NCBI GenBank assembly: GCA_031292625.1
Contig: JARLGU010000032.1
Coordinates: 1-64,000 of the forward strand
DNA from: Capsulimonadaceae bacterium
Lineage (GTDB): Bacteria; Armatimonadota; Armatimonadia; Armatimonadales; Capsulimonadaceae
Direction of reading: 5' to 3'
DNA: 64,000 nucleotides
Shown here piece after piece: positions 21,712-40,589 of this stretch (position 1 is its first letter; every line of letters begins with the position of its first letter). The position numbers and the translations under genes are program-made. A model generated the notes under the pieces. The model saw nothing but the letters and a program-made list of their open reading frames with translations. It searched no databases and was not told where the DNA came from.

Positions 21712-21774
21712 TTTCCAGAAGATAAGTTCATGCGAACTAAACGTCATTTGTCGCTTTTGCTACAGAGGCTATAT

Positions 21775-23268
21775 ATGGGGCGAATTACAGCAACGGCGTG
21801 TTTGCTTGCGACGTGCGCGGCGGGCGGGGCGCTGGCGGATACTGAGCCGGTCAAAGCGTGGTCATTCTCGCCTGTGCCGGTCGGCGCGTTAAGGGGCGTT
21901 GTAATTCCAGCTTCCAAGGCGTCCGCTTTCGAAGCCCTCATCGAAACTCCAGGTGATGTCGGCTTGCCCGCTGCATGGGAGGGCCGAAAACTTGCGTGGG
22001 GGCGTCTGGCTTCGCAGGATGACGGCGGGTTTCGCGTCGTACAACGCCTTAAGGGTGATGATCCGGCCGCAATAATGGTTATCGCCGGGCACTTTTATAA
22101 TCCCGTCATTTATAGGAATCAGGACTACAGGTTTCGATTCACGTGCAATCGCACGGCGGCCCTCTACATCGATGGGCGCCGGCTCATCACCACGGGCGAT
22201 GCGCGGTTTTGTGTGGCACGGGTGCATAGTTACGAGCACCGCGTTGGACCGGTGCGCTTCGTAATTGTAACTTCCGCGCAAGGCGAGCCCGACTTCCACT
22301 TTGAAATGGCCCAGCCGGGCGATGTTCACTTCTTTGCCGAACTGCCAAAGCAGATCGACAAAGAAGCCCATGTTGACGACTATTTGTCGCGACCTATTTC
22401 GAATGGCTTGGTTGATGCTGTTGTCGCAGTGCCCGATACGGTCAAGGGCTATTATCGCGGCAATCGCTTCGAGCAAGCTGGCATTATCCTCTCTTTGGAT
22501 TACAGGGGCCACACCTACTTTCCTGTCGCTGCTATGGCGCATAATCCTATCGACCCGCATCAGCCGGTGGGGCCGTGCGAAGAGTGTTTCGATCCCATCG
22601 CCTGGGACGATGCCAAACCCGGCGAGCCGTTCATCAAGTTCGGTGTGGGCTTGTACGAGAAGCAATGTGTTGAGAAATCGGCCTGGTATGACCCAGCTTG
22701 GTTGGTACGTTTGTTCGACTGGACGACGCGTTCCGGCAAGAACTGGGTGGAATTTACACAGACCGTACGTGGACCGAGAGGCTGGGCGTATCACTACGTA
22801 AAGCGTATCGTACTCGTGCCTGGGCAGCCGGAGATGCGCATTGAGCACGAGCTTATCAACACAGGGCGAAACCAAATCGATATCGAGCAATACAACCATA
22901 ACTGGATCAGCATCGACGGCGTTGAGGCATCATACGGCTACGTGGCTGAGTTCCCATTTGTTCCTGCCGCCGAAGGCAAGACGCGATCGGGTTTCGAGTT
23001 CAATGGTTCCTCGATAAGTTTTGCAAGTCAGGAGCCGTCATATGTTAGCATTGCCGGTTTCAAGCCGCATGCGACCGACAATCAGGTTAGCATTTCAACG
23101 AAGGCGTCGTCCGCATCACTGCTCATCACTGGTGACTTTGCGCTTTCGAAGGCCGCGATGTATGCATGTGAGCAGGCCTTTTGCTTTGAGCCGTTCGTAA
23201 CCATCCGTGTATTGCCTGGCGAGAAGGCCGCCTGGTCGCGGGTGTATAAGTTCCGATCAGGGACTTAA
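21775..23268 (+). CDS. Secreted galactose-mutarotase-like protein
   Basis: The ATG at 21775 is preferred because AGAGG lies six bases upstream and the product then begins with a clean signal peptide (MGRITATACLLATCAAGGALA); the frame also has an ATG at 21730. The mature protein of about 476 residues is beta-rich. It contains GQPEMRIEHELINTGRNQID, then QYNHNWISIDG, features of the aldose-epimerase/mutarotase sandwich, where His and Glu act on the sugar ring. It might interconvert anomers or bind poly- or oligosaccharide outside the membrane. The catalytic residues cannot be confirmed, and assignment rests on fold-like patterns. Confidence 0.6.
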   Translation: MGRITATACLLATCAAGGALADTEPVKAWSFSPVPVGALRGVVIPASKASAFEALIETPGDVGLPAAWEGRKLAWGRLASQDDGGFRVVQRLKGDDPAAIMVIAGHFYNPVIYRNQDYRFRFTCNRTAALYIDGRRLITTGDARFCVARVHSYEHRVGPVRFVIVTSAQGEPDFHFEMAQPGDVHFFAELPKQIDKEAHVDDYLSRPISNGLVDAVVAVPDTVKGYYRGNRFEQAGIILSLDYRGHTYFPVAAMAHNPIDPHQPVGPCEECFDPIAWDDAKPGEPFIKFGVGLYEKQCVEKSAWYDPAWLVRLFDWTTRSGKNWVEFTQTVRGPRGWAYHYVKRIVLVPGQPEMRIEHELINTGRNQIDIEQYNHNWISIDGVEASYGYVAEFPFVPAAEGKTRSGFEFNGSSISFASQEPSYVSIAGFKPHATDNQVSISTKASSASLLITGDFALSKAAMYACEQAFCFEPFVTIRVLPGEKAAWSRVYKFRSGT

Positions 23269-23396
23269 CGTCGAAGTGCCATGGTGATCCTCTACGAGTG
23301 AGTTAAGGGAGCGCGGACCTGTCGCGGACAGCAATGGCCGAGGTTGGCGCAGGCGAATTGAATAAAAGGACGTATGCTTGTGAGGAGCCACGCTCC

Positions 23397-24410
23397 ATGG
23401 ACAGACGCTATTCTCCGTCGCAATTCCATGAAATGACGTATTCCGCTACGATGCCAAGGCTGGCGTTCCGAGGTCAGGAAATCGGCGAATGGCGCGAACA
23501 GCTCGACATCGCGTTTCATCAGGTTCTCGGTTGGCAGGCGGACAAGCGGCGCGGGCCGCTCAACGTGGAGATCCTCGAAGAAGAGGCGACCAGCACTTAC
23601 GTCCGGCGCAAACTCGTGTTCGAAAGCGAGCCAGACTCGGATGTGCCGTGCCATCTTCTCGTGCCGAATGGCGTATCTGAATGCCGTCCCGCATTTGTCT
23701 GCTTGCAGGGCCACACGACGGGAATGCACATCTCCTTGGGGCAGGCGGTAGGCCCCAGGGACCAAGCCTGGATCGACGAGGAGCAGGATTTCGCGGTCCA
23801 GGCGGCGCGGCAGGGATACATTGCGCTTGCGATCGAGCAGCGTTCATTCGGCTTGCGCGAGGAAAGACTGCAACGAATGCGATCGGCGAACGGATGCGAA
23901 GATGCCGCGATGCATGCGCTCCTTCTGGGGCGCACGCTGGCCGCGGAACGAGCGTGGGACGTATCGCGGGCGATCGATCTGTTGGAAACCATCCCCGGGG
24001 TGGATAGAGGCCGAATCGGCTGCGTGGGAAACTCCGGCGGTGGATCGGCGACGTACTATTCGGCATGTGTCGACAAACGAATTTCCCTGGCTTTGCCGTC
24101 ATGCTCAGTTTGTACGTATGCGGACAGCATTTTTCGAATTCATCATTGCTCCTGCAACTATCTACCCGGCATTCTCAAGGTTGCGGAAATGGGCGACCTC
24201 GCCGGCTTGATTGCGCCTCGCAAACTTATCGTTGTCGCGGGCGATGAGGACGATATCTTCCCGATCGATGGCGTTCGAAAGGCGTACGCCGCTGCCGAGC
24301 GCATTTATGCCGCCGCGGGCGCCAGTGACCACATTCGACTGATCGTTGGCAACGGCGGACATCGTTTCTTCGCGGAGCCGGCATGGGCCGCCGTACGGGA
24401 GTTGCTGTAG
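23397..24410 (+). CDS. Alpha/beta-hydrolase, acetyl-xylan-esterase-like
   Basis: The 337-residue protein starts at the ATG at 23397, with GAGGAG nine bases upstream; an earlier in-frame start at 23334 has no such site. It has an alpha/beta-hydrolase core with the nucleophile Ser213 in GCVGNSGGGSATY, a probable acid Asp near residues 283-286 (GDEDDIFPI) and His322 in GNGGHRFF. The strand before HTTGMHISLG (106-115) supplies the oxyanion loop. Such enzymes remove acetyl or other acyl groups from sugars. No signal peptide is present, so it would act on imported, acylated oligosaccharides. It follows the mutarotase-like gene in the same orientation. Confidence 0.8.
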   Translation: MDRRYSPSQFHEMTYSATMPRLAFRGQEIGEWREQLDIAFHQVLGWQADKRRGPLNVEILEEEATSTYVRRKLVFESEPDSDVPCHLLVPNGVSECRPAFVCLQGHTTGMHISLGQAVGPRDQAWIDEEQDFAVQAARQGYIALAIEQRSFGLREERLQRMRSANGCEDAAMHALLLGRTLAAERAWDVSRAIDLLETIPGVDRGRIGCVGNSGGGSATYYSACVDKRISLALPSCSVCTYADSIFRIHHCSCNYLPGILKVAEMGDLAGLIAPRKLIVVAGDEDDIFPIDGVRKAYAAAERIYAAAGASDHIRLIVGNGGHRFFAEPAWAAVRELL

Positions 24411-24621: not shown

Positions 24622-25323
24622 ATGAATCGACGCACGGCATTCACTTTAATCGAATTATTAGTTGTCATAGCGATTATTGCTATACTTGCAGCAATATTAT
24701 TTCCCGTGTTTGCTTCAGCCCGCGAGAAGGCGCGTGCGAGTGCTTGTTTGTCCAACGAAAAACAACTCGGCCTGGGCGTTCAGCAGTACGTTCAGGATTT
24801 CGATGAGAAGATGCCAAGCGGGTGGAATGCCAACCCGTGGACGCAGGTGCTTCCATATATCAAGTCGAGCGGTGTTGCCATTTGCCCTTCGGCGCCTGAG
24901 GGAACGATCAATAAGAGTTATGTCTGGCAAAACATCTATTGGAACTTCGATCCGGCGATGGGGCACGCTTCAGGGGGGCCATGGCAGCTCTCCCCGTGGG
25001 ACGCGCAGATGTCCGTATTTACCGCAGCCGACAAGTGTATTATCTTTGGCGACGGATGGGGTCAGCCGGCGAATGGCGCGACCTCGATGGACGACGCCAA
25101 CGGAACTAGTGGCGCGATGGAAACCGGGTTAACGAACACACCCCCCGTGATGCCGAATGGAACGTTGCGTTGCTTCGTTGCTCGACATAGCGGGGGCGAA
25201 AATTTCGTTCTCGCTGATGGACATGCAAAGTGGATGACGCTGAATTATGTTGCGAGTGTCAAGCAGGCGTCAAATCAGATCCAACCTGGTTACTACACGC
25301 TTTTCATGGCGCAGCAACAGTAA
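24622..25323 (+). CDS. DUF1559 prepilin-like protein (pseudopilin), locus 2
   Basis: The 233-residue protein has the prepilin start [19 protein letters not shown] with Ala at the cleavage position, the segment [19 protein letters not shown], and near the end [17 protein letters not shown], the H-X9-DG signature. It is the shortest of the three DUF1559 proteins in the window. GGAG lies eight bases before the ATG. It has its own promoter and palindrome (24476-24507) and precedes the giant secreted protein at 25438. The predicted product is anchored in the inner membrane until processed by prepilin peptidase. Codons for the hydrophobic segment are unusually AT-rich for this region. Confidence 0.93.
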
Positions 25324-25437: not shown

Positions 25438-28400
25438 GTGTATTTAAGATACAGGCATATATGCTTGATGCTCGGCATCTTCTTGCTCATTTCGGTTGTG
25501 CAATGCGCCGGCGCCGCGTCGACGAACGTCGTTGTGCAAAGAACGGCGTGGAGTTTCGATGCGTCTCAGCTTGAATGGTACGCTGGCGCGAGACCCGATG
25601 AGGAGAAGAAGGCGGGCACGCTGCACGCTGTCAATGGCTGGACGGAGTATCGCTTCGACGTCGGCAAGACCGGTTGGTATGCGCTCTGGGCCGCGGTCGT
25701 TCCTGAGTGGTCACGGGACTGGTTCCTCGACGGTCGCCAGGTCTTCAACCTCAAAGTGAGCCAAAAGGGAGACGTTGATGGCGGAATGGCCAAGGAAGGC
25801 AATCTGTTCCTGACCTCCGGTTCGCACACGCTTCGCTTTCGACGCCTGGGCTTTCCCGGTTGGCTTTGCGCGAAGTGGGAACTGCGCGATGTCGCAGATG
25901 ATCCGCTGGGATGCATCGCGGCGAGCGTGGTAGGCCCGAACGTAATCCGCGCGGGCATGGCGGTCAATATCCGCGTCACGGCCGGTGGTTGTCACGCTGC
26001 TCAATATACGCTGTTTGCTCGTGATGAAGAAACGAACTCGCTGACCCCAGTCGCAAAAGTTGCCTTTCCTGCGTCGAGCATGACAGTGACCCGAGACGTG
26101 CGGATCGTCGTTCCGCATCAGGGCGTCTTCTCCTTGCTACCGCAGGCCGACGGTGTGTTTGGCAAGCCTGCCGACTTGGCGACGGGGCAAATCATCGCAA
26201 TTGATACGCACGGAGCCCCACCCGCTGCGCCGGCATTCTCACGATCGCTCGTAGTCGATATCGACTGCGCCAAACAGATGCCGCTGAGCGAAAAGAATGG
26301 AGCGACGAAGGTTATTGACGCTCCATTCGGCGCGTACCGGCAGTCGTCGGGCGCCGGTGCGAGTGAGAATTGGTGGGCGATGGATGGTTTTTCTTACGCG
26401 TTCGATATTCCGGATGTCGATGGACCGTACCAATTGGAGGTCGATTATCCTGACGACGACCGGCGTACGATGGGCTTTTGGATCAACGACCAGATAGCAG
26501 GCAACCCACCGTCGATTCCGCTTACGGGCGGAGTAGATACGGGCGATCGCTACAGGACGACCAACCGGATGCTAACCCACGTCGCCACGTTCTGGCCGCT
26601 CGGAACGCACATCGTATTTGCGGTCGTCAATTTGAACCACGGCATGACGGCTGCGGCTGCGCGAATCCGGGTTTACAAGCTTGCGAAGGATTTTGGCTCG
26701 GGGCCCGCCGGTCGTGTGGACGGCAGAAAGTTGGGATTTTACTACGAGGAAAGCGGGCGCTGGCTCCTTCACTTTGGTGCTCGGCCCGGCTTGTCCGACG
26801 TGCGCAACAGCATGCTGACGATGGATCGATGGGGGCGTTTTAACCGCTATCTGGGCGCGAACTTAATGTTCCCTACCGTGAACATCTACCAAGACAACCG
26901 TTTCCCGAGCAAGGTTCTCGAAGGCTACTTCAGTTCCACGGACGACCAGTGCCGCATGAACGCGTTGTTCGCCGAAAAATACAGCAGTGCCTACATCCCC
27001 GAACTGCACCTCAGTGGCCAGGCATGGTTTGACAAACACGTTATGGGCGTCTGGTTTGACCCTGCGACTAAGGCTTTGAAGTTTGCCTCCCGGCAGGCGG
27101 AAGACCGTGTCTTGCGGGATAAGGACGGCCGCGCAGGAGTTGGCGACAAGTGCTACTACAATGCGCTGAACTCCGAGGTTCAGGACAAGTATATTGCGGT
27201 AATGGGCGAACTCGCCGATGATCTCGCGGATAGTCCGTCGTTCGCAGGCATTTCGTCCCGGCTGATGCTTGGCTGGCAGTGGCAGGGCTGGAACGCGTTG
27301 CCTGGTTTGAACTGGGGCTACGACGACTGGACGATCGCGCAGTTTGAAAAAGACACGGGCGTACGGGTTCCCGGGACGGCAAATGATCCTGGCCGGTACA
27401 AAAAGCGTTATCTCTTCTTAACGGGGCCTAAGAGCGATGCCTGGATAACATGGCGCTGCAATAAGATCTATGCATATCATCAGCGCATTCTTGCGAGAAT
27501 ACGGCGCGCGAAATCGTCCGCCAAGTTGTTCTTGACGTGGTATGGCCAAGACGAGCATGAAGCCCAAAGCGCCAATACGCTGGTCCAACTTCGCGATGCG
27601 GGGATCGATCCATCGCGTTACGGCGGCGACTCCGCGATCGATATCATTCCAATCATAGCGTACGGTCGTCGATACTCGTCTCCTCTTGCGGATGCGAACC
27701 TCTTTGAACCTCTATTTAACCGAGACGTGAAGTCGTTGGCGCTTTCAAGTCGCGCGGGCATGAGCTATGGCAGTTATTTCGAGGTGGGCGATCCAGGATG
27801 GAAGACATTGGGCGCTAGTAACGAGCGTTTCATGAACGATGTCTGCACACCATCCGGGAGAAATGAGCTGGAGGACTATGCCATCCTCCTCGCCGACAGC
27901 GATTGCGGCTTGCTTGCCGCCGGCGCGTTCGGTCAGATTTACGGGGCTCCAGACTTGATGCGGGAGTTCCTCGCCAGCTATACGAAGCTTCCCGCCCTCC
28001 CATTTACGCCGATGCAATCGGGACGTGATCCAGTCGCTGTTTGGTATCGGCAGTGTTCCGGCGGGTTCTATTTTTATGCGGTGAACCGTGAACATTATCC
28101 TGTAAGTGTCGAGATCACCTTCGCGAAGGCGTCGCAGGTTGTATCGTTGGCGAGCGGCGCCACAGTACCGATGGCTGGCAATGTCCTTCGCGTCAATCTG
28201 CGGCCGTATGAGTTGCAGTCGTTTAGAATTGCCGGTACGGCTTCGATCCGTTCATGCAGCGAATCGATTCCCACGGACGATAAAGCACTTCTAGCATCTC
28301 AGGTCGCGTTTGTGGACGCACTTTCTCCGGGGCTGGTTGACCGTTCAATCGCTCCGGAACTGACTCAATCGGAACGTGACGATTGCTTGAGCTTGATCTC

Positions 28401-30369
28401 AGCCGCTCACGACGCACTGAACGCCGGACGGTACTGGGAGGCGCGGATGGATCTGGAACGTGCGCCGCTCATGAACCTCTATGACATCGCTGGGCACTAT
28501 CCGCCGTCACTGCAATACCGAAAGTCGGCCCGTGGATTTCAGAAGAGCGTGTCGACTTCCGCGCCCCATCTCGTCCCGGATGGAATCATCGGCGACGTGC
28601 GCGGCAAGCTGTCGTCGGTAACAGATCTTTGTTTCGACCGTGCGGGACAGCTCTGGGTCGCAAGCCGGGAACAGGTGATGCTGTTTGACTCCCATGGCCA
28701 GTACCGGAGCTGTGTGCATCTTGCAATGCCATACAGCGTCAACAATGGCGATCCTCGGTGGTGGAATGGCGCATCAATGCCAAGATACCTGTCTGCTGAC
28801 GCATTACGAGCCCTTAGTGATGGCACAATTGCGGCGACGTCGTACTTTTCGCCGCTTATCCGCTATGAGGCGATAACGGGGCGAGTGGTGCAAACGAATG
28901 GCGGCAATGGGATCGCGTTGCCGGGTCATCCTCTGGCATTCGACACCGATTCGCGTGGCGCCTACTATGTCGCCTGTGCGGATACGCCAGCGCAGGCTGG
29001 CGTTTACAAAGTTCAGGCGAACGGAGCGGCGGCGTTCGATTTCCGGCGCGACGGCGAAGTGACGAATAGGCTTTGCGACTTTGCGTCCGCGGGCGTGGCG
29101 GTCGACTCGGCGGGGCACATCTATGCCGGCGATCGCGACGGAGCGCGCATCGTGGTATTCGATCCCGCCGGCAAGCAACTCGAAGAGATCAAATCATCTG
29201 CCGGCAGCATCGGCAAACTCGCCGTCACCGCCGACGGTGCGCGGCTATTCGCGATCGTTGGCGACGGTACCGTTGCAGCGTGGCAACGTGACGTTTCCGC
29301 ACATTATGTCCTGCAGTGGCGCCGCTCTCTCGAAGGGCGAGCTTGCGCGCTCGCCGTGAGCGTTACCGGCACGCTTGCCGTGGGATTCTCTCCTGCTAAG
29401 GATGGGATCGTCGCGCGTAGCTATCGTTATGACTCAAGCGGACCAGTCGCGTGCACGTTCACGATCGCGTCCCCGGGACCAACCTGTCTTGGGGCGGAAC
29501 CGGGGCAAACCACGCTCCAAGAGTACGGGGGCGCGATCTACTATCTGACGTGCGGGAAACTGGTGCAAGTTGAGCCTGGCGAGCGGGACGTTGTGAAGGT
29601 TGTACTCGATTCCCAATTGGATGCGATCTCGTTTGCGTTCGACCTCTCAGGAAATCTATTTATCGCAAGCCGCAACGACTTGCGCGGCAAGCGCGGCGAA
29701 TACGTATGGCGCTCCGCGAAGACCGCTGATGGGTGGAGCGATCCACAGGGGATTACTGGCAGAGACCCTGTGAACACCGACACGATCGCGATGATCCCGT
29801 TCGGCCTCGCTATCGACAATAACGGCATAGTCTTAGTCCGGTCGTCGGACAACACGGATTGGACAACCCTGCGCATCTTTGGCTACGATCCAAACGGGAG
29901 CCGGCGCCAGATTGTAGATGTAACAGGCCTTGGCAGTGTGGCGCCCTGGGAAGGCCATTACGGACTCCATGTCGATCGCCGGACAGGACGGATATTTGTT
30001 GCGAGCGGTCCGTCGCATTCGGTTACATGCGTGAACGCGGATGCGTCTCCTTGTTGGTGTAAGGGCAACAGCGTGGCGCAGCGGCCAGGCGATGTGCCAC
30101 TCAGGGGACCGCGAGGGGTCACGACGGATCGGGAAGGGCGCGTCTGGGTGGCGGATTCGGACGCAAACCGTCTGCTGTGCTTCGATTCCGACGGCAACTA
30201 CCTGGCATCGTTTGGCCGTTTCGGCGGGATCGATGCGCGCGACGGATTCGCTCTGGCCGGGCCGTCTGGGATCGCGACGGTTGCCGGATCCGATGGACGA
30301 GAATGGTTGTACGTTGCCGACACGTTAAACCAGCGCTTAATCAAGTACCGCATTGAAAACGGTCGTTAG
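25438..30369 (+). CDS. Giant secreted hydrolase-like protein with C-terminal NHL-type propeller
   Basis: The 1643-residue product starts at GTG 25438 (MYLRYRHICLMLGIFLLIS), giving a signal peptide of about 27 residues. An ATG at 25468 is an alternative. Residues 30-150 and 265-420 look like beta-sandwich binding modules. Residues 425-950 resemble a TIM-barrel hydrolase, with IPELHLSG around Glu522, GYDDWTIAQFEKDTGVRV near 627-644 and WITWRCNKIYAYHQRI. A helical linker follows, and from about 1080 the protein is an NHL/SMP-30-like propeller (GPRGVTTDREGRVWVADSDA, DTLNQRLIKY). It shares its first 1000 residues in outline with the protein at 32792. I know no named family for the barrel; GHL10- or GH42-like relatives are the nearest guess. 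Confidence 0.75.
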   Translation: MYLRYRHICLMLGIFLLISVVQCAGAASTNVVVQRTAWSFDASQLEWYAGARPDEEKKAGTLHAVNGWTEYRFDVGKTGWYALWAAVVPEWSRDWFLDGRQVFNLKVSQKGDVDGGMAKEGNLFLTSGSHTLRFRRLGFPGWLCAKWELRDVADDPLGCIAASVVGPNVIRAGMAVNIRVTAGGCHAAQYTLFARDEETNSLTPVAKVAFPASSMTVTRDVRIVVPHQGVFSLLPQADGVFGKPADLATGQIIAIDTHGAPPAAPAFSRSLVVDIDCAKQMPLSEKNGATKVIDAPFGAYRQSSGAGASENWWAMDGFSYAFDIPDVDGPYQLEVDYPDDDRRTMGFWINDQIAGNPPSIPLTGGVDTGDRYRTTNRMLTHVATFWPLGTHIVFAVVNLNHGMTAAAARIRVYKLAKDFGSGPAGRVDGRKLGFYYEESGRWLLHFGARPGLSDVRNSMLTMDRWGRFNRYLGANLMFPTVNIYQDNRFPSKVLEGYFSSTDDQCRMNALFAEKYSSAYIPELHLSGQAWFDKHVMGVWFDPATKALKFASRQAEDRVLRDKDGRAGVGDKCYYNALNSEVQDKYIAVMGELADDLADSPSFAGISSRLMLGWQWQGWNALPGLNWGYDDWTIAQFEKDTGVRVPGTANDPGRYKKRYLFLTGPKSDAWITWRCNKIYAYHQRILARIRRAKSSAKLFLTWYGQDEHEAQSANTLVQLRDAGIDPSRYGGDSAIDIIPIIAYGRRYSSPLADANLFEPLFNRDVKSLALSSRAGMSYGSYFEVGDPGWKTLGASNERFMNDVCTPSGRNELEDYAILLADSDCGLLAAGAFGQIYGAPDLMREFLASYTKLPALPFTPMQSGRDPVAVWYRQCSGGFYFYAVNREHYPVSVEITFAKASQVVSLASGATVPMAGNVLRVNLRPYELQSFRIAGTASIRSCSESIPTDDKALLASQVAFVDALSPGLVDRSIAPELTQSERDDCLSLISAAHDALNAGRYWEARMDLERAPLMNLYDIAGHYPPSLQYRKSARGFQKSVSTSAPHLVPDGIIGDVRGKLSSVTDLCFDRAGQLWVASREQVMLFDSHGQYRSCVHLAMPYSVNNGDPRWWNGASMPRYLSADALRALSDGTIAATSYFSPLIRYEAITGRVVQTNGGNGIALPGHPLAFDTDSRGAYYVACADTPAQAGVYKVQANGAAAFDFRRDGEVTNRLCDFASAGVAVDSAGHIYAGDRDGARIVVFDPAGKQLEEIKSSAGSIGKLAVTADGARLFAIVGDGTVAAWQRDVSAHYVLQWRRSLEGRACALAVSVTGTLAVGFSPAKDGIVARSYRYDSSGPVACTFTIASPGPTCLGAEPGQTTLQEYGGAIYYLTCGKLVQVEPGERDVVKVVLDSQLDAISFAFDLSGNLFIASRNDLRGKRGEYVWRSAKTADGWSDPQGITGRDPVNTDTIAMIPFGLAIDNNGIVLVRSSDNTDWTTLRIFGYDPNGSRRQIVDVTGLGSVAPWEGHYGLHVDRRTGRIFVASGPSHSVTCVNADASPCWCKGNSVAQRPGDVPLRGPRGVTTDREGRVWVADSDANRLLCFDSDGNYLASFGRFGGIDARDGFALAGPSGIATVAGSDGREWLYVADTLNQRLIKYRIENGR

Positions 30370-30405
30370 TGAGGCCGGACCAGAAATTTTAAGGGAGTAT
30401 TCGTA

Positions 30406-32757
30406 ATGCATGTAGCGAGTGGATTGACAGACGAACCGCGGCGCACAGAGTGGTTTCGCGACGCGCGCTTTGGGTTGTTCATTCATTGGGGGCTTTATTC
30501 ATTGCTCGCCCGAGAAGCCTGGGTGATGGATAGCGAACAAATCCCGCGCGAGAAGTACAGGGCGTTCGCGGCCGATTTTCATCCGGACGATCTCGATTTC
30601 GACGAATGGGCGCAATTGGCGAAACGCGCGGGAGCGAAGTACGTCGTGTTCACGAGCCGGCACCACGACGGATTCGCGCTCTTCGACAGCAAGGCGAGCG
30701 ATTTCAACTCGATGCAAAGCACGGGGCGGGACTTCGTTCGAGAATATGTCGCGGCGGTTCGGCGAGCCGGTCTCAAGGTTGGACTTTACTATTCGCTAAT
30801 GAGTTGGCAGTTTCCGGCGGTCTACGCCGGGCCGATAGCGGATCCGCCAGGCTGGGAGGCGATGGTGCGTCAGTCGCATGAGCAGGTGCAGGAGCTCATG
30901 TCGAACTACGGTCCAATCGATTTACTCTGGTACGACGGATGCGTCATTCCCGGCGCCTCCGAAAAATCTCGTCTCGCCTCGCGTTGGCGAAGCCGAGGCC
31001 TGAACGCTATGGTGCGCTCCCTGCAGCCGCACATCGTGATCAATGATCGTTCAGGACTTCCCGAGGATTTCGATACGCCGGAACAGCATATCAGTGCTCC
31101 GGGCGGTCGCCGCCTCTGGGAGGCGTGTATGACATTCAACAACCATTGGGGCTACTGCGAGACCGACCACGCGTTCAAGTCCGTGCGAGAGATACTGGCC
31201 TATTTGGTCTACTGCGCCCGCTATCGCGGCAACCTTCTTCTCAATATTGGTCCGCGCGCCGATGGATCGGTTCCCACCGAATGCGTGGACAGGCTTAAAG
31301 TGATTGGTTCATGGCTGGCAACAAACGGCATCGCAATTTACGGCTCGGAACGTCGATCGATCACGGAGCACGAACATCCATCCACCGTTGTGACGGCTAG
31401 GGGAGCCAAGGCGTATGTTCATCTCCTGGATCAAATGGCCGACTCGGCCCACGTCGCCGGGATACGCGGACCAGTTGCCGGCACGCGGATCTTGGGATCC
31501 GATGCGGCCGTGAACGTTACCACACTGCGGGACGGCACCGTGCAGATTACGGGCCTGGCTCAGTCTCGCGAACGGGAATCTGAGCTGCCGCGCGTCGTGG
31601 AGATCGACATGAACGACCGCAGGCGCTTCGGAAAGGTTACTGGGATCTTATCAACGCCGCCAGCGCAAGGTAGAGAGCTAGACGCCACCGTTCCAATTAT
31701 CGGGGCGGATACTGGCCGCGCTGAACCGCCTCGTGGCGTGGTTGCCGAAGCGCGGGAATTCGCTCTGGCAAGCCCCCTCAAGCTGACATTAACGAACGCT
31801 TCTGAGTGGTGTCCTGAATGGGGCGGCCGACAAGTCGCAACGGCTGAGGATCGAACAATAACGGCGCCGTTTCATGTAAACGTTTCAGGCGTTTATGATT
31901 TCGAAATAGGCGTAGTGAACGAATGTGCCGGCAGAATAAGCACATCGATCGACAGCACAATAAGCGCCCATCCCGGTGACGTCGTTCCTGGCGGCTATCC
32001 TGCGACGATCTCACTGAAGCGTATCGTTCTTGCTCAAGGTTGGCACAGTCTTGCGCTGGCCGCGGACACTGGCAATCGCATAGGTGTTTACGGCGTGCGG
32101 CTCAGCGCATGCTGGCAAGGAATCCCCTCCGAACTGTGGGCAACCGCCGGCCCGTACTCCAGCGCGTTCCGCTGGGGCGGGGCAGTATCTACTGTTCGAT
32201 CGGCCCTTCTGACCCCCTACCTGACCGATGAGTACCTTCACCGGCCAGACATCTTCGCAGGCGATGGCGTAGCACCGTCGCAATGGCGCATCGAGAGATC
32301 GCGGCGTGGCGAGCATTCTGCTCAAGGCGTTGAGTATGCGTGCCGTGGGCAAGCGGACGATTGGGGGGTGTGCTATGCGCGCGCGGTAGTCGTAAGCCCC
32401 GATCCGCGCGACGTGGAGATCGCTTTCGGGTGCGATTGGTGGGCTAACTTGACGCTGAATGGGCGTTCTTTGGGATCGGATCGGGCCGCTGAACTTGTCG
32501 CTGAAGATGGCGCCATGTTCTGTGGCCATAAACCGGTCGCGATTGCGTGTCGATTCGATGCGGGCGAGAACGTATTGATCGTGAAGTCGCATCCGGGCCG
32601 GCATGCGCACTGGTTTACCATGTTTATTAACAACCCTGGCGATCTGACGTTCGTCACGCCAATGGAATGGTCTCACTTTCGCCGAGGCGCATTTTACAAA
32701 TATCCGGAGGCGGAGGTCGTTTGTCCGCCCCAGCTTGAGCCGGTCGTCTGCTGTTGA
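30406..32757 (+). CDS. Alpha-L-fucosidase (GH29) with extra C-terminal modules
   Basis: The 783-residue protein begins with the GH29 hallmark WFRDARFGLFIHWGLYS (residues 16-32), then SRHHDGFALFDSKASDFNS (84-102). It carries the nucleophile Asp177 in IDLLWYDGCV, where GH29 enzymes have a WxD motif. GH29 enzymes release alpha-L-fucose with retention. After the catalytic domain and a short beta domain (to about 420), residues 460-783 add modules absent from minimal fucosidases. The last of these (FGCDWWANLTLNGRSL ... INNPGDLTF) resembles the C-terminus of the neighbour at 32792. No signal peptide is visible. GGGAG lies eight bases before the ATG. It points to fucose-containing glycans as substrate of this island. 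Confidence 0.92.
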   Translation: MHVASGLTDEPRRTEWFRDARFGLFIHWGLYSLLAREAWVMDSEQIPREKYRAFAADFHPDDLDFDEWAQLAKRAGAKYVVFTSRHHDGFALFDSKASDFNSMQSTGRDFVREYVAAVRRAGLKVGLYYSLMSWQFPAVYAGPIADPPGWEAMVRQSHEQVQELMSNYGPIDLLWYDGCVIPGASEKSRLASRWRSRGLNAMVRSLQPHIVINDRSGLPEDFDTPEQHISAPGGRRLWEACMTFNNHWGYCETDHAFKSVREILAYLVYCARYRGNLLLNIGPRADGSVPTECVDRLKVIGSWLATNGIAIYGSERRSITEHEHPSTVVTARGAKAYVHLLDQMADSAHVAGIRGPVAGTRILGSDAAVNVTTLRDGTVQITGLAQSRERESELPRVVEIDMNDRRRFGKVTGILSTPPAQGRELDATVPIIGADTGRAEPPRGVVAEAREFALASPLKLTLTNASEWCPEWGGRQVATAEDRTITAPFHVNVSGVYDFEIGVVNECAGRISTSIDSTISAHPGDVVPGGYPATISLKRIVLAQGWHSLALAADTGNRIGVYGVRLSACWQGIPSELWATAGPYSSAFRWGGAVSTVRSALLTPYLTDEYLHRPDIFAGDGVAPSQWRIERSRRGEHSAQGVEYACRGQADDWGVCYARAVVVSPDPRDVEIAFGCDWWANLTLNGRSLGSDRAAELVAEDGAMFCGHKPVAIACRFDAGENVLIVKSHPGRHAHWFTMFINNPGDLTFVTPMEWSHFRRGAFYKYPEAEVVCPPQLEPVVCC

Positions 32758-32791
32758 TAATTGCCGCCGAGTAGGCGGAAAGGGAGATCTG

Positions 32792-35700
32792 ATGGTTCGA
32801 TTTTGTTTGATTGCGATCGGAGTTCTCATGAGTACGTTCGTTTCCGCAAACCAAACGTCCGCATCCTCGGAACGGGCTTTGACAATCGATGCGACGGCTT
32901 ATTCCCGCTACCACTTGGTCGAAGCGTGTGACAAGCCTGCGCGGCCCGAGGTGAGCGTCATTCCGAAAATACGCTCCACGCACTCACTGCTTGGAGAGGG
33001 CTGGGTGGATTACGATTTCGTCGTTCCGGCCAGCGGTTGGTACGCGGTGGGCTTCGGCGGCGTGACCGATGCGTCCGACCACGATTTCTATATCGACAGC
33101 GTACATATCTATGGCGGATTTGGCGGCAAAATTGCCAACGCTTGGTTAGGAGCCGGGTCACACGTACTTCGCGTTCAGAGATACACCTATTCTGGACTTG
33201 CACCGTTCGCGTCGTTCACGATCACAGCTTCTGCCGGCGCCGTCGCCAGTTCCGTACGAGTCGAGCCGGAGAACACGAGCCTCATTTTCCGCGTGGGTGA
33301 GGCACTGAAGCTGAACGTTCACACAGGGGGGCGCACATCGGCAGGCGCCTTGACCGTTTGGGTCAAAGAGGCCAACACGGACGCCGTAATCAGAACATAC
33401 AGCGTCGTGCTGCCGGCTGCATCGAACGAAGTCATACAACGCCTAACGATTCCGTACGCGAAGGAAGGCCTGTATTATGTTACGTTTGGCGATGCCGGCA
33501 AACCGGTCGCCGCATCCGATGTACGCGAGATCGAGTACCTTGTTGTTGATACGACGCATAACGACCAGCCTGTTGGCGGCGACATCAAAAGGACGCTGAT
33601 CAAGCAGATAGACTGCGGGGCGACGCCTCCGGATTATGCGGGAGGAATCACCAATGCTATCCACACTCCCATAGGCGTCTACAGGCAATCGGGTGATCGA
33701 GGATACCTGCAGAGCAAGGATTTCCACTGGTTTACTTACCGTTTGGATGTTCCCGAAGCGCAAAAGCCGTATGTCGTGGAGGTCGACTATCCCGATGACG
33801 ATTGCCGGACGTTTGGCATCGCACTGATGGAGAGGAACATGATGGATTATCCTCCTGTCGGCGGTGTCGACAGCGGAGGGGTGTTCTCTCTCTCGCACGA
33901 GATGCAGACGCAAAGCTTCATCTACTATCCGCGCGGCAAGGAAGTCGTAATCTCGTTCATCAATACAAGAGATGGTCGAACCGCGGCGGCTGCCCGTATC
34001 AGGCTTTACTCTGTCCACGCGCCGATCCCGGCTCTTGGGACCCCACGGGAGGGCGGTCGAAGTTTTGGCAGCTGGTTGGAAGAGGGAGATCGGTGGGCTA
34101 CGTTCTACGGCGCTCCCGACAAGTCGTTGAACGGCTACGTCGTCAGCATGAACCGGTGGGCTCAGGTCGCGCGCTATATGGGGCTCGACACCCTCTCCCC
34201 GACTGTGAACATCTATCAGAACGTTCTGTTTCCAACCACGTATTTCGATGGCTATTTTCGCCCGGCCGGCGGTGCTCGCGATCCGATGCCGCTCGATGTA
34301 GTCCGCTTGCTACTTCTCGTTTGCGAAAAGTACGAATTGAAGTTGCTACCAGAGTTTCATCCTTGTGGCAACGCCTACCATCTGCACGACTACGATGCGA
34401 AGTACGCGTCGTATCCCGACCCACAACCGCAGCGTATTGTGGGAAAGGATGGGCAGGTCGGTCATAGCAACTTTGAACCGTATTACAATCCTATTTATCC
34501 GGACAATCGACAATGGTACATCGGAATGCTTGGCGAATTTGCGGACCAGTACAAAGACTCCGCTGCACTGGATGGAGTTAGCTTGCGTGTTATGGGATGG
34601 GTGGGTGAAGGCCACAACGGATATCCGTCGCTCAAATGGGGATACGAGGACTATACTGTCCACCTTTTCGAAAAGCAAACCGGTACTCGGGTTCAAGTAA
34701 AAGATACCGATCCCGAGCGGTTCCGCAAGCGCTATGATTGGCTGATGGCGAAGTGCAAGGCAAAATGGATCGACTGGCGGTGCGATCAGGTCGTCAAGCT
34801 CTATGCTGACATTCGCGATCGTGTTCGGAAGGCGCGGCCAAATCTGTTCGTGGTTTCGCCTATCCATCCCGAGCTAGACGGCACATATTATGATGAAAAA
34901 GAGCGCTTCTTTACAACCCACGACTATTCTGAACTGCTTCGCGAGTGCGGCTACGACACGCGAAAGATGGCGGCCCTCGATGGCGTTTTCTTCCTGAATG
35001 CCTTCCATTATTACGGTCGCCGGCAGTCCGAAGCCGTTTCCGAGCAGGCGTCGCGTGACATGCTGCTCAATCCCGCGGCGAAAAAGGCGCTTATCGTAAA
35101 CACAAACCGCACAGGTTATCTATTCAGCAACGGTTACTTTGAGGCGAACCAAAAGATCAAGCCCGCGGACATGGGGCTTGCCGGAGTGAAGCCTGGCGGC
35201 TGGGTCGCATTGGTAAACCCGGCTGGACGCCACTACCTTGAACGGTACGCGCTGTCGGTCGCCGAGGGAGACGCCTCGATGATCCTCGATGGCGGCGAAG
35301 GCTATCTGGGCGGACAGCCTCTCCTCCGCGAATTCCTAGCGGAATACCGGCAACTGCCGGTCGCACGGTTTATGCCGAGGCCGGACGCGACCGATCCTGT
35401 GTCCGTTTGGCAGCTCAACGATCGCAAGCGATTCTGGTTCTACGCGGTGAATCGCGAGCGGTATCCAATTCGTGTCGCGATCCACTTGTCCGGGGCGGGC
35501 GTCGTCACGCGGCCCGCATTGGCCGAGACTGTGCCCGCGAAAAACGGCATCATCGAGATCGTTCTTGCGCCGTATCAGATGGCCGTATGGAAATGTGCGC
35601 CGACACGCGCCATTGCGACAGTGGACGTTGCGGTCCCGCGCGAGGCGAAGGAGCGAGCGACGGCGATGGTTCTTTGGATCGAGAGGTTTGACGCGTCGGT

Positions 35701-36862
35701 CCAAAGCGGCAAGGCGGGCCAGTCGCTTAACGCCGCGCAGAAGGCTACTCTGCATAAGTACGCATTGGAGGCGAGGGCTTGCGTAGTGCGAATGCACTAC
35801 TGGCGGGCGCGCACATTGATGGAGTCGCACGAACTCTTGCCGATTTACGACCTGCTCGGGGCTGCTCCGCCAGCGCTTGCGGAATACAGAGTCCCGCCAA
35901 TGCCCCTGAACGCCATGCAGGCTGGCGAATTGCTCGCATGTGCGAGCACAGTTTCCGGCGCGGACATATCAACGGTCTCTAGCGAGAGCGTAGATCCTCA
36001 GTGGGCAGGCGGCAAGCTGCTGGTCACATCAGAAGCCTCAACGCAGATCCGCGTCGCTAACCCCGTGGCGGGAAAATACTCCCTGACGATCTGTCATGTC
36101 GCGGGTGGTGATTATGGTCCCCTCAATGTGGCGATCGGCAACGTCAGCCTCGGCGCGACCTCTGATCCTTCCAAAACGCCGAGCCTCGTTTTATCGCCCT
36201 TCGCGCCAGTCGTCTTAGGCGCCGGTGACCAGGCGATAACACTGACGCGTCCACATGGCACAGTCACGGCGATTAATTGGATTTCGTTAAGCCCTGTCTA
36301 TCGGGACTTGGTTCGCTCCGATTGGTCGACCGTCGGGCCGTTTCCAAGTCCGCTGGTTCAGTACACCGTGGCGGATGGCTTTCAGCATGCCTTTGATCCA
36401 GAGCTGTCTCGGAATTTCGGTGCAAATGTTCCGCTCACGACGGACGGAGCATATGCCACATGGGAGCGCGGATCCGGGGACGGCGCCTATATCGACCTGT
36501 TCGATAAATACCACAAGGTGGGCGAGGTCCTATCATATGGCGTGACCTACGTATATGCGCCGACTGACCGAATTGCCACGCTCTCGTACGATGTCGATTG
36601 GTGGGCCAAGCTGTGGGTGAACGGCGAAAAGCTGGCGGATTTCACCGATGCACGCCCACCTAAAGCGCCAAATGGACGATTCGCAACTGATGTGCGGCTG
36701 AAGAAAGGCTGGAATAAAATCCTGATTAAAGTGCAATCAGGTTCAGCCGGCAATGGCTATTGGATGGCTATCAGCGATCCTGGCGATTTGTGCGTCTCGC
36801 CGACGCCGCCTCAGGGAGAAGTTTCGCAGCCGGCAATGTCTTGTCTGGATACGAGTCGTTAG
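32792..36862 (+). CDS. Giant secreted hydrolase-like protein, paralogue of the 25438 product
   Basis: The ATG at 32792 has AGGGAG close upstream and starts a signal peptide (MVRFCLIAIGVLMSTFVSA); the product is 1356 residues. Residues 25-140 and 270-420 are beta-sandwich modules. VVEVDYPDDDCRTFGIAL and TAAAARIRLY match the 25438 product almost segment for segment. The barrel region has LLPEFHPCG with Glu521, WGYEDYTVHLFEKQTGTRV near 617-635 and WIDWRCDQ. Instead of a propeller it ends in a module (YDVDWWAKLWVNGEKL ... ISDPGDL) that resembles the end of the fucosidase at 30406. It probably acts outside the inner membrane on the same glycan. The enzyme family is not identified. Confidence 0.78.
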   Translation: MVRFCLIAIGVLMSTFVSANQTSASSERALTIDATAYSRYHLVEACDKPARPEVSVIPKIRSTHSLLGEGWVDYDFVVPASGWYAVGFGGVTDASDHDFYIDSVHIYGGFGGKIANAWLGAGSHVLRVQRYTYSGLAPFASFTITASAGAVASSVRVEPENTSLIFRVGEALKLNVHTGGRTSAGALTVWVKEANTDAVIRTYSVVLPAASNEVIQRLTIPYAKEGLYYVTFGDAGKPVAASDVREIEYLVVDTTHNDQPVGGDIKRTLIKQIDCGATPPDYAGGITNAIHTPIGVYRQSGDRGYLQSKDFHWFTYRLDVPEAQKPYVVEVDYPDDDCRTFGIALMERNMMDYPPVGGVDSGGVFSLSHEMQTQSFIYYPRGKEVVISFINTRDGRTAAAARIRLYSVHAPIPALGTPREGGRSFGSWLEEGDRWATFYGAPDKSLNGYVVSMNRWAQVARYMGLDTLSPTVNIYQNVLFPTTYFDGYFRPAGGARDPMPLDVVRLLLLVCEKYELKLLPEFHPCGNAYHLHDYDAKYASYPDPQPQRIVGKDGQVGHSNFEPYYNPIYPDNRQWYIGMLGEFADQYKDSAALDGVSLRVMGWVGEGHNGYPSLKWGYEDYTVHLFEKQTGTRVQVKDTDPERFRKRYDWLMAKCKAKWIDWRCDQVVKLYADIRDRVRKARPNLFVVSPIHPELDGTYYDEKERFFTTHDYSELLRECGYDTRKMAALDGVFFLNAFHYYGRRQSEAVSEQASRDMLLNPAAKKALIVNTNRTGYLFSNGYFEANQKIKPADMGLAGVKPGGWVALVNPAGRHYLERYALSVAEGDASMILDGGEGYLGGQPLLREFLAEYRQLPVARFMPRPDATDPVSVWQLNDRKRFWFYAVNRERYPIRVAIHLSGAGVVTRPALAETVPAKNGIIEIVLAPYQMAVWKCAPTRAIATVDVAVPREAKERATAMVLWIERFDASVQSGKAGQSLNAAQKATLHKYALEARACVVRMHYWRARTLMESHELLPIYDLLGAAPPALAEYRVPPMPLNAMQAGELLACASTVSGADISTVSSESVDPQWAGGKLLVTSEASTQIRVANPVAGKYSLTICHVAGGDYGPLNVAIGNVSLGATSDPSKTPSLVLSPFAPVVLGAGDQAITLTRPHGTVTAINWISLSPVYRDLVRSDWSTVGPFPSPLVQYTVADGFQHAFDPELSRNFGANVPLTTDGAYATWERGSGDGAYIDLFDKYHKVGEVLSYGVTYVYAPTDRIATLSYDVDWWAKLWVNGEKLADFTDARPPKAPNGRFATDVRLKKGWNKILIKVQSGSAGNGYWMAISDPGDLCVSPTPPQGEVSQPAMSCLDTSR

Positions 36863-36873
36863 GAGTTCGTTTT

Positions 36874-37809
36874 ATGAGCCTGTTTGTTAAAATCAGCACA
36901 ATCGGGACCGCGCCGCCGGTCTCCCGGCCTGGACGCAATAACGGCCAGCTTGTCGACGACATGATCGCGCATTGGCGGGAGACGTTCGATCGGGTTCTTC
37001 CAGACCACCCTGACCTGATCGTGGTTCCGGAGTGGTGCGATCACTATATCGACCACTCGCTGGCGCAGTCGCTTGCGTATTTCGCCGAGCGGGGCGACCG
37101 GGTGCTGAGTTTCTTCCAGGAGACGGCAAAGCGCTTCAAGTGCTTTCTGACGTATCCCGCGCTCTGGCCGAATGCGGATGGGACGTGGCGCAATTCGATC
37201 CAGCTTATTGATGATGGTGGGAACGTCATCGGAGTCTACGAGAAGAACCACCCGACCGTCGGTGAGCTGGAAATTGGCGTGATGCCCGGCACTCAGATCC
37301 CGGTTTTCGAGACGCGGATCGGGCGGATCGGCGGCCTGATCTGCTTCGACCTCAACTTTGCTGAGCTTAAGGAACGATACAGACGCGCTCGCCCCGATCT
37401 GCTGCTCTTTTGCTCGCTTTACCACGGAGGAATGCAGCAGCAATCGTGGGCGTTCGACTGCCGCTGCCATTTCGCCGGGGCCTGCGCGGACTTTCCGAGC
37501 GCGATCGTTTCGCCGCTCGGCTCGGTTCTGGCGACATCGACCAACTACATCGAGCATGTCACGGCAACGGTCAATCTCGACTGCGCGCTGGTCCATCTCA
37601 ACTTCAACGAGGAGAAGTTGCCTGCCCTTAAGGGCAAGTACGGCCCCGAGGCGATGATTACGGACCTCGGCCTCTCCGCCGTGGTTCAAGTCGCGAGCGG
37701 GCATCCGTCACGCTCCGTCGCCGATCTGCTGGCGGAGTTTGAGATCGAGACGCTGGATGGCTATCTTGACCGCTGCCGGGATCTGCAGGCGAAATGCCTC
37801 GCACGCTGA
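36874..37809 (+). CDS. Carbon-nitrogen hydrolase (nitrilase superfamily)
   Basis: The 311-residue protein starts at the ATG at 36874 with AGGAG seven bases upstream, 11 bp after the preceding stop. It shows the nitrilase-superfamily triad: Glu53 in LIVVPEWCDH, Lys124 in VYEKNHPTVG and Cys157 in GGLICFDLNF. These enzymes hydrolyse amides, nitriles or carbamoyl groups through a thioester at the cysteine. Inside a glycan island an amide on an amino sugar or a carbamoylated sugar is a possible substrate (inference). No signal peptide is present. Base composition rises in GC from here to about 40570 compared with the genes before it. Confidence 0.9.
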   Translation: MSLFVKISTIGTAPPVSRPGRNNGQLVDDMIAHWRETFDRVLPDHPDLIVVPEWCDHYIDHSLAQSLAYFAERGDRVLSFFQETAKRFKCFLTYPALWPNADGTWRNSIQLIDDGGNVIGVYEKNHPTVGELEIGVMPGTQIPVFETRIGRIGGLICFDLNFAELKERYRRARPDLLLFCSLYHGGMQQQSWAFDCRCHFAGACADFPSAIVSPLGSVLATSTNYIEHVTATVNLDCALVHLNFNEEKLPALKGKYGPEAMITDLGLSAVVQVASGHPSRSVADLLAEFEIETLDGYLDRCRDLQAKCLAR

Positions 37810-37891
37810 GCGTAGTAAAGATCCAAAAATGGCCAGCCCGGCCACAGAGGACATCCTTATCTTAACAAAAGATTGCAGGGAGATCATCAAC

Positions 37892-39064
37892 ATGAGCAAG
37901 AAACCAATTCACGTCGCGCAGGTCGGCTGCGGGCGGTTCGCCGCCGGGCAGGATATGCCCAATTTCAAGGACAACTCGGACATCGAATGTCTGTGGTGTT
38001 GCGATTCGGATATCGAGCGGGCTCGGAGCGTCGCCGCCCAGTTTGGCATTCCGCACGCGACGAGCGATTTGCAGGCGGTGCTTGCCGATCCGGATGTGGA
38101 CCTGATTAAGATCGCGACATCGCATGAGGCGCATCTGCCGATCATCGAAGCAGCTGCGGCCGCCGGGAAGCATGTCTTCTGCGAGAAGCCGCTCGCGCTG
38201 GACCCTTTGGAGGGGCTCAAGATCGTGCGGGCGGTGCGCCGGGGCGGGATCAAGCTGGGCGTCGATTATAACCGAACCTGCGCGCCGGCGATCCGCAGGT
38301 TGCGGGAGGTCTGGCAGGAGCATGTCGCCGCGCCGCGCCATAATCCCTGGCGCTATATCGAAATCGATCGGCCGCTCTATCCGGATGAGACCAGCTCGCA
38401 TCTGCTGGTTCGCATCCAGGACGATTCCATGACCTATGTTCCGGTTCACATGGACCCGCTACGCGGCGGCGGTCCGCTGATCGGTGAAACGGTCCACTGG
38501 CTCGATCTGTCCTGCTGGTTCTTCGCGCCGCAAGTGCCTGTCGAGATTCTGGGCTGGGGCTCGGAGCGTTTTACGCACGGTGTCAACATCAAGTTCTCCG
38601 GCGGCGACTCGGCGACGATACTCTTTCACTGCGCAGGGACGTTCGATTACCCGAAAGAGCTCTACGAAGTGACGTCAAACGGCGCGCTGTTGCGCAGCGA
38701 GCATTTCGTCGAGAACAACTACTACGGCATTCCGGGACTGGGCCGCGAGCTGTTCGATCTGCAGTTCGATTGCATGCCCGGGATCGGCGACGAAGGCGGT
38801 TTGTCCGGTTGGCAGGCAAAGTTCAATGCGCGGGTCCAGGGAATGTCGAACTGCAAAGAAGGTTTCAGCGAGCTGAATGTCAACAAGGGGCATCGCGCGA
38901 TGCTGGCGGGGGTGATCGATGCGATCCGCATGGGCGGACCGACCCCGTGCGACGAGTTTGCGGGGCTTCGGGCAACCTATCTGGCACGCCTAGCCGGGCA
39001 GTCAATTCGCCTGCGCCAGTCTCTCCCGGTGCCGGTTGACCAACTGGTGTTCGACGTGCTTTAA
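37892..39064 (+). CDS. Gfo/Idh/MocA family oxidoreductase
   Basis: The 390-residue protein starts at ATG 37892 with GGGAG nine bases upstream. Rossmann motif HVAQVGCGRFAAGQ (residues 7-20), family motif FCEKPLAL (96-103), then the GFO_IDH_MocA domain with GETVHWLDLSCWFF, a probable substrate-binding histidine. It lies between the nitrilase-like gene and the enolase-superfamily gene in the same direction, an order that suggests one pathway: oxidation of a sugar or lactone followed by dehydration of the acid. The frame is open upstream to 37739, but those codons lie inside the previous gene. Confidence 0.9.
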   Translation: MSKKPIHVAQVGCGRFAAGQDMPNFKDNSDIECLWCCDSDIERARSVAAQFGIPHATSDLQAVLADPDVDLIKIATSHEAHLPIIEAAAAAGKHVFCEKPLALDPLEGLKIVRAVRRGGIKLGVDYNRTCAPAIRRLREVWQEHVAAPRHNPWRYIEIDRPLYPDETSSHLLVRIQDDSMTYVPVHMDPLRGGGPLIGETVHWLDLSCWFFAPQVPVEILGWGSERFTHGVNIKFSGGDSATILFHCAGTFDYPKELYEVTSNGALLRSEHFVENNYYGIPGLGRELFDLQFDCMPGIGDEGGLSGWQAKFNARVQGMSNCKEGFSELNVNKGHRAMLAGVIDAIRMGGPTPCDEFAGLRATYLARLAGQSIRLRQSLPVPVDQLVFDVL

Positions 39065-39166
39065 GGGCTTATGAGTAGGAGCCGCGTCTCTGGCCGCCGG
39101 GCCATTTTTCACTCGCGGTCTGAGGGCGATGGGCTGAGTTGATCTTATCCTGAGCGAAAGGACAAT

Positions 39167-40570
39167 ATGAGTAAGCTAACTGACATTCGGGTGCGCGGCG
39201 TACGTTTGCACTTTCTGCCGGTCCAAACGCGGATGCCATACAAGTTCGGCAGTGAGAGCCAGAGCCGAGTCACCTGCGCGCGCTGTGAGGTCCGAGTTGT
39301 CAGCGCGGACGGCAGCTCGGCGACTGGATGGGGCGAGACGCCGCTCAGCGTGGGCTGGGTTTGGCCGTCGTCGCTGTCGTACAACGAGCGTCTAGGCCGC
39401 CTGCAGGACTTTTGCCGCGGGCTGGCGACTGCCTGGTGCGGCGAGGCTGGATCCGGTCACCCCATCGAGATCGGCTACGATTTTCAGGAAGGCCCGCTTC
39501 GTCGCCTCTGGCAGCAGGCCAACGTGGGCTTTGCGGAAACGATGCCGTGGCTGGCCGCACTCGTCTGCTGCTCGGCGTTCGATATCGCGGTCCACGATGC
39601 CTATGGGATTTTGCACGACTTGCCGGTCTACCAAACCTACAACCGCGGGTTCATGAACCGGGATCTTGCGGCGTTCCTCACTCCCGCTGGCGGCCATGAG
39701 GGCGGTTTCGCCGGTCGCTATCCGTGCGACTACCTGGTCGCTGATCCGCCTCGACGCATCCGCGCCTGGCACAGCGTCGGGATCGGCGACGCGCTGACGG
39801 AGGACGACCTGACAGGCGATGAGCCCAGCGATCGCTACCCCGTCGTTCTCGGCGATTGGATTGCTCGCGACGGCTTGAAGTGCCTCAAGATCAAGCTGCG
39901 CGGCTTCGATTACGAGACCGACTACCAGCGGATTGTGCGGTGCGGCGAGATCGGCCTGGCGGGCGGGGTCGAATGGCTCACCACCGACTTCAATTGCACC
40001 GTGGGCGATCCGGCGTATGTGAACGGCATGCTCGACCAGCTTCGCGACGAGCATCCGCGGCTGTACGGCATGCTGCTCTACGTCGAGCAGCCGTTCGCGT
40101 ATGAGCTGGAGGAGCACCGGATCGATGTCCACGGCGTCGCCGCGCGCAAGCCGCTCTTTATGGACGAGAGTGCGCACAACTGGCGGCTGATCCGGCTTGG
40201 ACGCGATCTTGGCTGGACGGGAGTGGCGCTCAAGACGTGCAAGACGCAGAGCGGTGCGATCCTGAGTGCGTGCTGGGCGCGGGAGCACGGGATGGGGCTG
40301 ATGGTGCAGGATCTTTGCAATCCTATGCTCGCGCAGATCCCGCATCTGCACCTGGCCGCGAATGCCGGCACGATTATGGGGCTGGAATCGAATGCTATGC
40401 AATTCTACCCAGACGCCTCGTCGTACGAATCGGCTATCCATCCAGGCGCCTACCGCCGAATGGATGGCTGCCTCGATCTCGCGACGCTGGGCGGTCCCGG
40501 ATTCGGCTACCGGATCGACGAGATTGAGCGCCCGCTGCCGGAGGCGGTCGTTGTTGCGGGGGAAATCTAG
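39167..40570 (+). CDS. Enolase-superfamily (mandelate racemase/muconate lactonizing type) dehydratase
   Basis: The 467-residue protein has the superfamily capping domain and a C-terminal barrel with KIKLRG (catalytic Lys241/Lys243), metal ligands Asp274 (TTDFNC), Glu307 (YVEQPF) and Asp333/Glu334 (FMDES), and a second-side lysine near 356-359 (VALKTCKTQ). Members abstract the proton next to a carboxylate; in sugar catabolism they are acid-sugar dehydratases (fuconate, rhamnonate, galactonate and others). With the fucosidase upstream, fuconate or a related acid is an attractive substrate, but this is inference. AAGGA lies four bases before the ATG. It is longer than typical relatives because of an insertion at about 175-230. 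Confidence 0.85.
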   Translation: MSKLTDIRVRGVRLHFLPVQTRMPYKFGSESQSRVTCARCEVRVVSADGSSATGWGETPLSVGWVWPSSLSYNERLGRLQDFCRGLATAWCGEAGSGHPIEIGYDFQEGPLRRLWQQANVGFAETMPWLAALVCCSAFDIAVHDAYGILHDLPVYQTYNRGFMNRDLAAFLTPAGGHEGGFAGRYPCDYLVADPPRRIRAWHSVGIGDALTEDDLTGDEPSDRYPVVLGDWIARDGLKCLKIKLRGFDYETDYQRIVRCGEIGLAGGVEWLTTDFNCTVGDPAYVNGMLDQLRDEHPRLYGMLLYVEQPFAYELEEHRIDVHGVAARKPLFMDESAHNWRLIRLGRDLGWTGVALKTCKTQSGAILSACWAREHGMGLMVQDLCNPMLAQIPHLHLAANAGTIMGLESNAMQFYPDASSYESAIHPGAYRRMDGCLDLATLGGPGFGYRIDEIERPLPEAVVVAGEI

Positions 40571-40589
40571 GAATTAAGGTGAATCGTTA

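Follow-up and report, generated by a model that had tools for sequence, protein, structure and literature searches.

Two large proteins, here called A and B, are encoded on a 64,000-nucleotide stretch of DNA from a Capsulimonadaceae bacterium (the window; contig JARLGU010000032.1). As judged from sequence comparisons and structural models, they are probably exported multimodular glycoside hydrolases (GHs) from different clades of one family, which is distantly related to GHL10 (Pfam PF02638) and has a rebuilt active site. They appear to be good candidates for a subfamily of enzymes that is still unexplored, because the usual GHL10 acid is missing yet both have another group of charged residues that are conserved. 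The reading is carried by four results: the barrel is homologous to GHL10, it appears in the models of both proteins, residues at the ends of strands 1, 3, 4 and 7 are conserved, and genes for carbohydrate enzymes recur around the family; from these we infer the cleavage of a glycosidic bond by the rebuilt site, and a substrate. GHL10-type barrels are common, and only few have been assayed.

Protein A (25438–30369; 1,643 amino acids from a GTG start, multimodular, with a signal-peptide-like N-terminus) and protein B (32792–36862; 1,356 amino acids), like all their features given below, lie on the plus strand. An earlier reading of the bare sequence (the original prediction) had described them as two giant paralogues. 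Indeed, both open reading frames (ORFs) are real, and the proteins share 30% identity over 1,074 residues (E 2e-128), far above chance. The ORF of B extends upstream to a TTG at 32735, but the ATG at 32792 is the better start, because the signal-peptide-like stretch begins there. The motifs quoted in the prediction are also in place in A and B, respectively: PELH (Glu522) and PEFH (Glu521), WGYDDWT at 626 and WGYEDYT at 616, FEK.TG at 636 and 626, and WITWRC at 669 and WIDWRC at 659. A third copy of the family is found on another contig of the same genome (Pfam GHL10 51 bits), and locus L039 encodes a full-length homologue of A with the same tail and 45% identity.

We found no numbered CAZy family for the barrel, in agreement with the original prediction, which had been unable to place it at all; hidden Markov model (HMM) and profile–profile searches, however, placed it as a homologue of GHL10. 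The curated Pfam cut-off for GHL10 is 27.9 bits; B scored 33.8 bits and A 17.4 bits, with the model covered only partly. Among family barrels gathered from related genomes, 15 of the 17 aligned matched GHL10 (best E 1.5e-13). When the family was compared by hhalign with 13 true GHL10 domains, E. coli DigH among them, the match spanned 198 columns at 97.2% and E 4e-11, whereas controls with GH29 and with a GH42-like protein of the window each gave less than 1%, in small alignments that make them weaker than the GHL10 test. GH29 and GH42 were ruled out as sequence relatives of the barrel on these negatives. The motifs GY(D/E)D, FEK.TG and W..WR fall inside the GHL10-aligned stretch, and Trp672-Arg673 of A, the counterpart of DigH Trp266-Arg267, is invariant. 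By sequence comparison, then, the barrel is homologous to GHL10, the Pfam family of Cwp19, DigH and DogH. A 2017 paper calls GHL10 unclassified (PMC5765458), and the name is still used in one from 2023 (PMC9967864).

Single-protein sequence searches of the PDB matched only the propeller of A and nothing in B, and an NCBIfam search also matched only the propeller. PDB profile searches gave domain C matches to amylases and a weak match to a putative fucosidase (4h41, E 0.0017), while a profile of three diverged family members retrieved nothing related from the PDB and PADLOC gave no match.

Confident AlphaFold models, built with sequences from the window and related loci as the only input, hold an eight-stranded barrel in both proteins, as the original prediction had anticipated (A24–1060, mean predicted local distance difference test score (pLDDT) 87.3, predicted template modelling score 0.90; B401–1356, mean pLDDT 83.6). 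The barrel spans approximately residues 425–845 of A (26710–27972; GHL10-related) and 419–840 of B (34046–35311). In structure searches, which essentially probe the barrel and domain C only, the top match of both models was Cwp19, a GHL10 protein (B, Z 25.3 over 326 residues at 4.4 Å; A, Z 20.7 over 320 residues at 4.0 Å). PgaB (GH153) was tied with it within 1 Z (25.0 for B and 20.4 for A), GH42 followed at 24.3 and 18.2, and a GH156 exosialidase appeared in the list of A at Z 16.9. Foldseek, run with full-length A, returned mainly multidomain GH2 enzymes at low TM-score, and this result was set aside.

A scan of genome contigs with a five-member alignment and two short patterns, which gives a lower bound, found 28 family loci in Armatimonadota, Planctomycetota, Lentisphaerota, Verrucomicrobiota (Opitutaceae), WS1, Omnitrophota and a few Pseudomonadota. 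In Armatimonadota, the phylum of the window, 19 of 251 genomes carry the family, and tandem pairs of members also occur in L039, L047 and L048. In a tree of 32 barrels, A and B fall into two supported clades (100/98 and 97/91), and a Planctomycetota clade is set apart with support of 100/100.

In the core clade, Glu437 and Glu438 of A (26746–26751, after strand 1) and Arg608 (27259–27261, strand 4) are each invariant (22 of 22), as is Glu782 in the motif YFE (27781–27783; 24 of 24), placed at the end of strand 7 by the secondary structure of the model. Position 522, on strand 3 (27001–27003, PELH), is Glu in 20 and Asp in 2 of 22 members, and Arg744, after strand 6, is present in 22 of 23; His524 is not invariant. 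The counterparts of Glu437, Glu522, Arg608 and Glu782 in B are Glu430, Glu521, Arg599 and Glu784. By profile alignment, Glu522 occupies the position of a Trp invariant in GHL10, and Arg608 replaces an invariant GHL10 Asp (Asp235 of DigH). The acidic candidate of the original prediction, Glu522/521, is therefore well placed and conserved, but invariant Glu437/438, Arg608 and Glu782, and also the missing strand-4 Asp, had escaped the prediction. In the first aligned pairs of the structural matches, PgaB Asp326 falls on Glu437 of A and Glu430 of B, GH156 Asp14 on Glu437 of A, and Cwp19 Trp36 on Tyr435 of A and Trp428 of B; the two models agree on the mapping wherever both have the match. The outer Planctomycetota clade (L057–L063 and L065; Gimesia and relatives) mostly carries Gln437, Lys438, Gln608 and His782 and, because these core residues are replaced, probably has a different activity or none.

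We compared A and B with the known families on this fold. About 200 columns of homology link them to GHL10, as do the W..WR signature, the barrel fold and Cwp19 as the top structural match. They differ in having Arg for the strand-4 Asp and Glu for the strand-3 Trp, and in adding three N-terminal modules, domain C and a long C-terminal tail. They also carry a strand-7 Glu where Cwp19 has Gly328, at the site of the catalytic Glu of other families (PMC5765458). A and B are thus related to GHL10 yet are not filed as standard members, because the strand-4 acid is absent. The C-terminal domain of PgaB (GH153) likewise has a barrel, and its Asp326 corresponds in position to the acid that follows strand 1 in A and B; A and B, however, lack a PNAG (poly-N-acetylglucosamine) gene context and any counterpart of the strand-4 Asp474, the probable catalytic acid of Bordetella PgaB (PMC5933820), there being no Asp or Glu at A608–609 or the equivalent positions in the core clade. 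GH42 and other clan GH-A enzymes resemble A and B in the succession of barrel and domain C-like sandwich and in the Glu that the model places at the end of strand 7, but no sequence relation to the GH42-like protein of the window was detected, and membership of clan GH-A is not supported, because the strand-4 acid/base is absent. The inverting GH156 exosialidase EnvSia156 shares with A and B the type of barrel, Cwp19 as its closest fold (PMC6811678) and a neighbouring GH29 gene (PMC6254351), and by the anchor mapping its Asp14 would correspond to the acid after strand 1, whereas A and B have Glu instead of Asp, additional Glu residues on strands 3 and 7, and a far larger, multimodular form. 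In GH156, Asp14 is the essential base, and the active site differs from that of Cwp19 despite the shared fold (PMC6811678); therefore, this fold has already moved its catalytic residues. By analogy, the present family is plausibly another case of a re-sited catalytic pair, and a multi-phylum family with re-sited invariant charged residues is a concrete case, beside GH156, for active-site turnover on one fold.

The gene neighbourhoods also bear on function. A and B flank an alpha-L-fucosidase gene, as the original prediction stated; the GH29 gene (30406–32757; Pfam Alpha_L_fucos 1.5e-79) lies on the same strand with a gap of about 35 bases on each side, and its product has a C-terminal module common to B-type proteins. 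Its homologues, 39–40% identical over nearly full length, adjoin family members in two Opitutaceae loci. Upstream of A, also on the plus strand, is a gene for an esterase-like alpha/beta hydrolase (23334–24410; Pfam Abhydrolase_7, with a weaker AXE1 match), and such esterase-like neighbours are found in the window, L050, L051 and L054. A GH1 gene lies beside the family in L043 and a GH2 gene in L041. An unnamed, conserved neighbour (21730–23268, plus strand; 512 amino acids, no Pfam match) recurs near the family across phyla, in L024 (9960–11450), L043, L051, L053 and L055, and in one case the two are fused (L042:3769–8814). A profile of this neighbour family found no relative in the PDB; its motifs Y.HN...DG and FPF presumably recall mutarotase-like sandwiches. 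Beside the family, GH29, esterase-like and the unnamed genes come back in more than one phylum. These neighbourhoods (GH29, esterase-like, GH1, GH2 and unnamed genes, and the module shared by GH29 and B) point to glycan breakdown, the substrate not being fixed by them.

If A and B are hydrolases with a rebuilt site, the strand-1 Glu (Glu437 of A, Glu430 of B) would most likely act as base or nucleophile, like Asp14 of GH156, and the acid could be supplied by the strand-7 or the strand-3 Glu (Glu782/784 or Glu522/521). The invariant strand-4 Arg and the Arg after strand 6 may hold the sugar by a polar or acidic group, and the flanking modules may bind polymer. Together with the GH29 fucosidase and the esterase-like enzyme, A and B would probably dismantle an esterified, fucose-bearing polysaccharide, a substrate suggested by gene context. 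Several observations weigh against this reading. All 22 core members have Arg in place of the strand-4 Asp that the 13 aligned GHL10 domains share without exception, a correspondence taken from the profile–profile alignment and a shared Gly at A604. The following position is also non-acidic in the core clade (Arg608-Leu609 in A, Arg599-Val600 in B), so that the strand-4 acid of the GHL10, GH153 and clan GH-A relatives is missing. Asp828, present in most members, is missing from A. The structural mapping uses the first aligned pair of each match and takes the first eight residues to be free of gaps, and the link to fucose comes from gene context only. If active, these enzymes would probably become a new family in CAZy and reveal how complex, possibly fucosylated, glycans are opened in Armatimonadota, Planctomycetota, Lentisphaerota and Opitutaceae. 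The fuller proposal that the core clade is such a family on the GHL10/GH156 fold is more tentative, and we would not yet bet on it: its catalytic set of Glu-Glu (strand 1), Glu (strand 3), Arg (strand 4) and Glu (strand 7) would be undescribed, with the arginines recognizing an acidic sugar in fucose-containing polysaccharides.

The loss of the strand-4 Asp might alternatively mean that the GHL10 site has decayed, and that the barrels belong to non-catalytic polysaccharide-binding proteins, giants that hold the substrate while the fucosidase and other enzymes act on it. The many beta modules and the propeller or DWWA tail do resemble binding parts, and the outer Planctomycetota clade has lost Glu437 and Glu782 as well. 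However, several charged residues are invariant across phyla at the catalytic strand ends, more than expected of a decayed site, and GH156 is active on this fold without a strand-4 acid (PMC6811678); we thus regard a purely binding role as unlikely. The comparison with GH156 raises another explanation, that A and B, like GH156, are inverting enzymes that remove an acidic sugar (sialic acid, for example) in exo fashion, the base being the strand-1 acid and the acid a residue of strand 3. It would fit the alignment of Glu437 with Asp14, the presence of GH156 in the structural list of A, the nearly invariant Arg608 and Arg744 of the core, and the GH29 fucosidase in the GH156 source cluster, as well as the occurrence of GH156 in PVC (Planctomycetes–Verrucomicrobia–Chlamydiae) phyla and Armatimonadetes (PMC6254351). 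It is nevertheless improbable: PDB profile searches up to E 10, which cover PDB structures only, gave no sequence similarity to GH156, its Z is below those of Cwp19, PgaB and GH42, the site-facing strand-3 residue is Glu522 while His524 varies, and GH156 proteins are far smaller.

The best studied GHL10 members, Cwp19 and DigH, act on peptidoglycan (PMC6016235, PMC12288456), and the profile–profile homology would allow A and B to do the same on their own cell wall. This is very improbable, as the family is patchy (the 19 of 251 genomes above) compared with strong GHL10 genes in 36 of 41 relatives, the proteins are multimodular and 1,300–1,600 amino acids long, sugar-enzyme neighbours recur, and the positions of Trp127 and Asp196, which with Arg132 are among the proposed active-site residues of Cwp19 (PMC5765458), are replaced. 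We retain exported glycoside hydrolases with a rebuilt active site as the preferred reading of A and B.

Outside the barrel, the two proteins differ at their C-termini, as originally described. Protein A ends in an NHL-type beta-propeller (approximately residues 1058–1640, 28609–30357; Pfam NHL 3.4e-12, SGL, and NHL matches in the PDB), and B in beta modules seen in the secondary structure of the model (approximately 1051–1336, 35942–36799), with DWWA at 1269 and common to the GH29 protein. A domain C-like beta sandwich, with a weak Malt_amylase_C match and strands in the model, follows the barrel of A (approximately 864–945, 28027–28272). Ahead of the barrel of A, where two beta-sandwich modules had been proposed, the model has three segments rich in beta structure, none with a Pfam match (approximately 31–415, 25528–26682), at about A31–136, A146–237 and A269–415.

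The GH29 ORF begins at the catalytic domain, without a signal-peptide-like stretch, and its Opitutaceae homologues are some 30–40 residues longer N-terminally; the fucosidase might, by its sequence, work intracellularly, unlike A and B. Downstream of B, the run 37739–44524 encodes a GFO/IDH/MocA oxidoreductase, an enolase-superfamily protein, two UROD-like proteins and a weak melibiase-like protein, and could be the sugar catabolic part of the A/B cluster. Prepilin-like DUF1559 (SBP_bac_10) genes lie at 12223–13149, 24622–25323 and 55215–56162 of the window and also in L039, L048, L050, L053 and L054; recurring beside these carbohydrate clusters, they are possibly a surface-attachment part. 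One genome of the same phylum (G023) has a striking expansion of GHL10, with 20 matches at E <1e-20, several of them in open frames of more than 1,000 amino acids.

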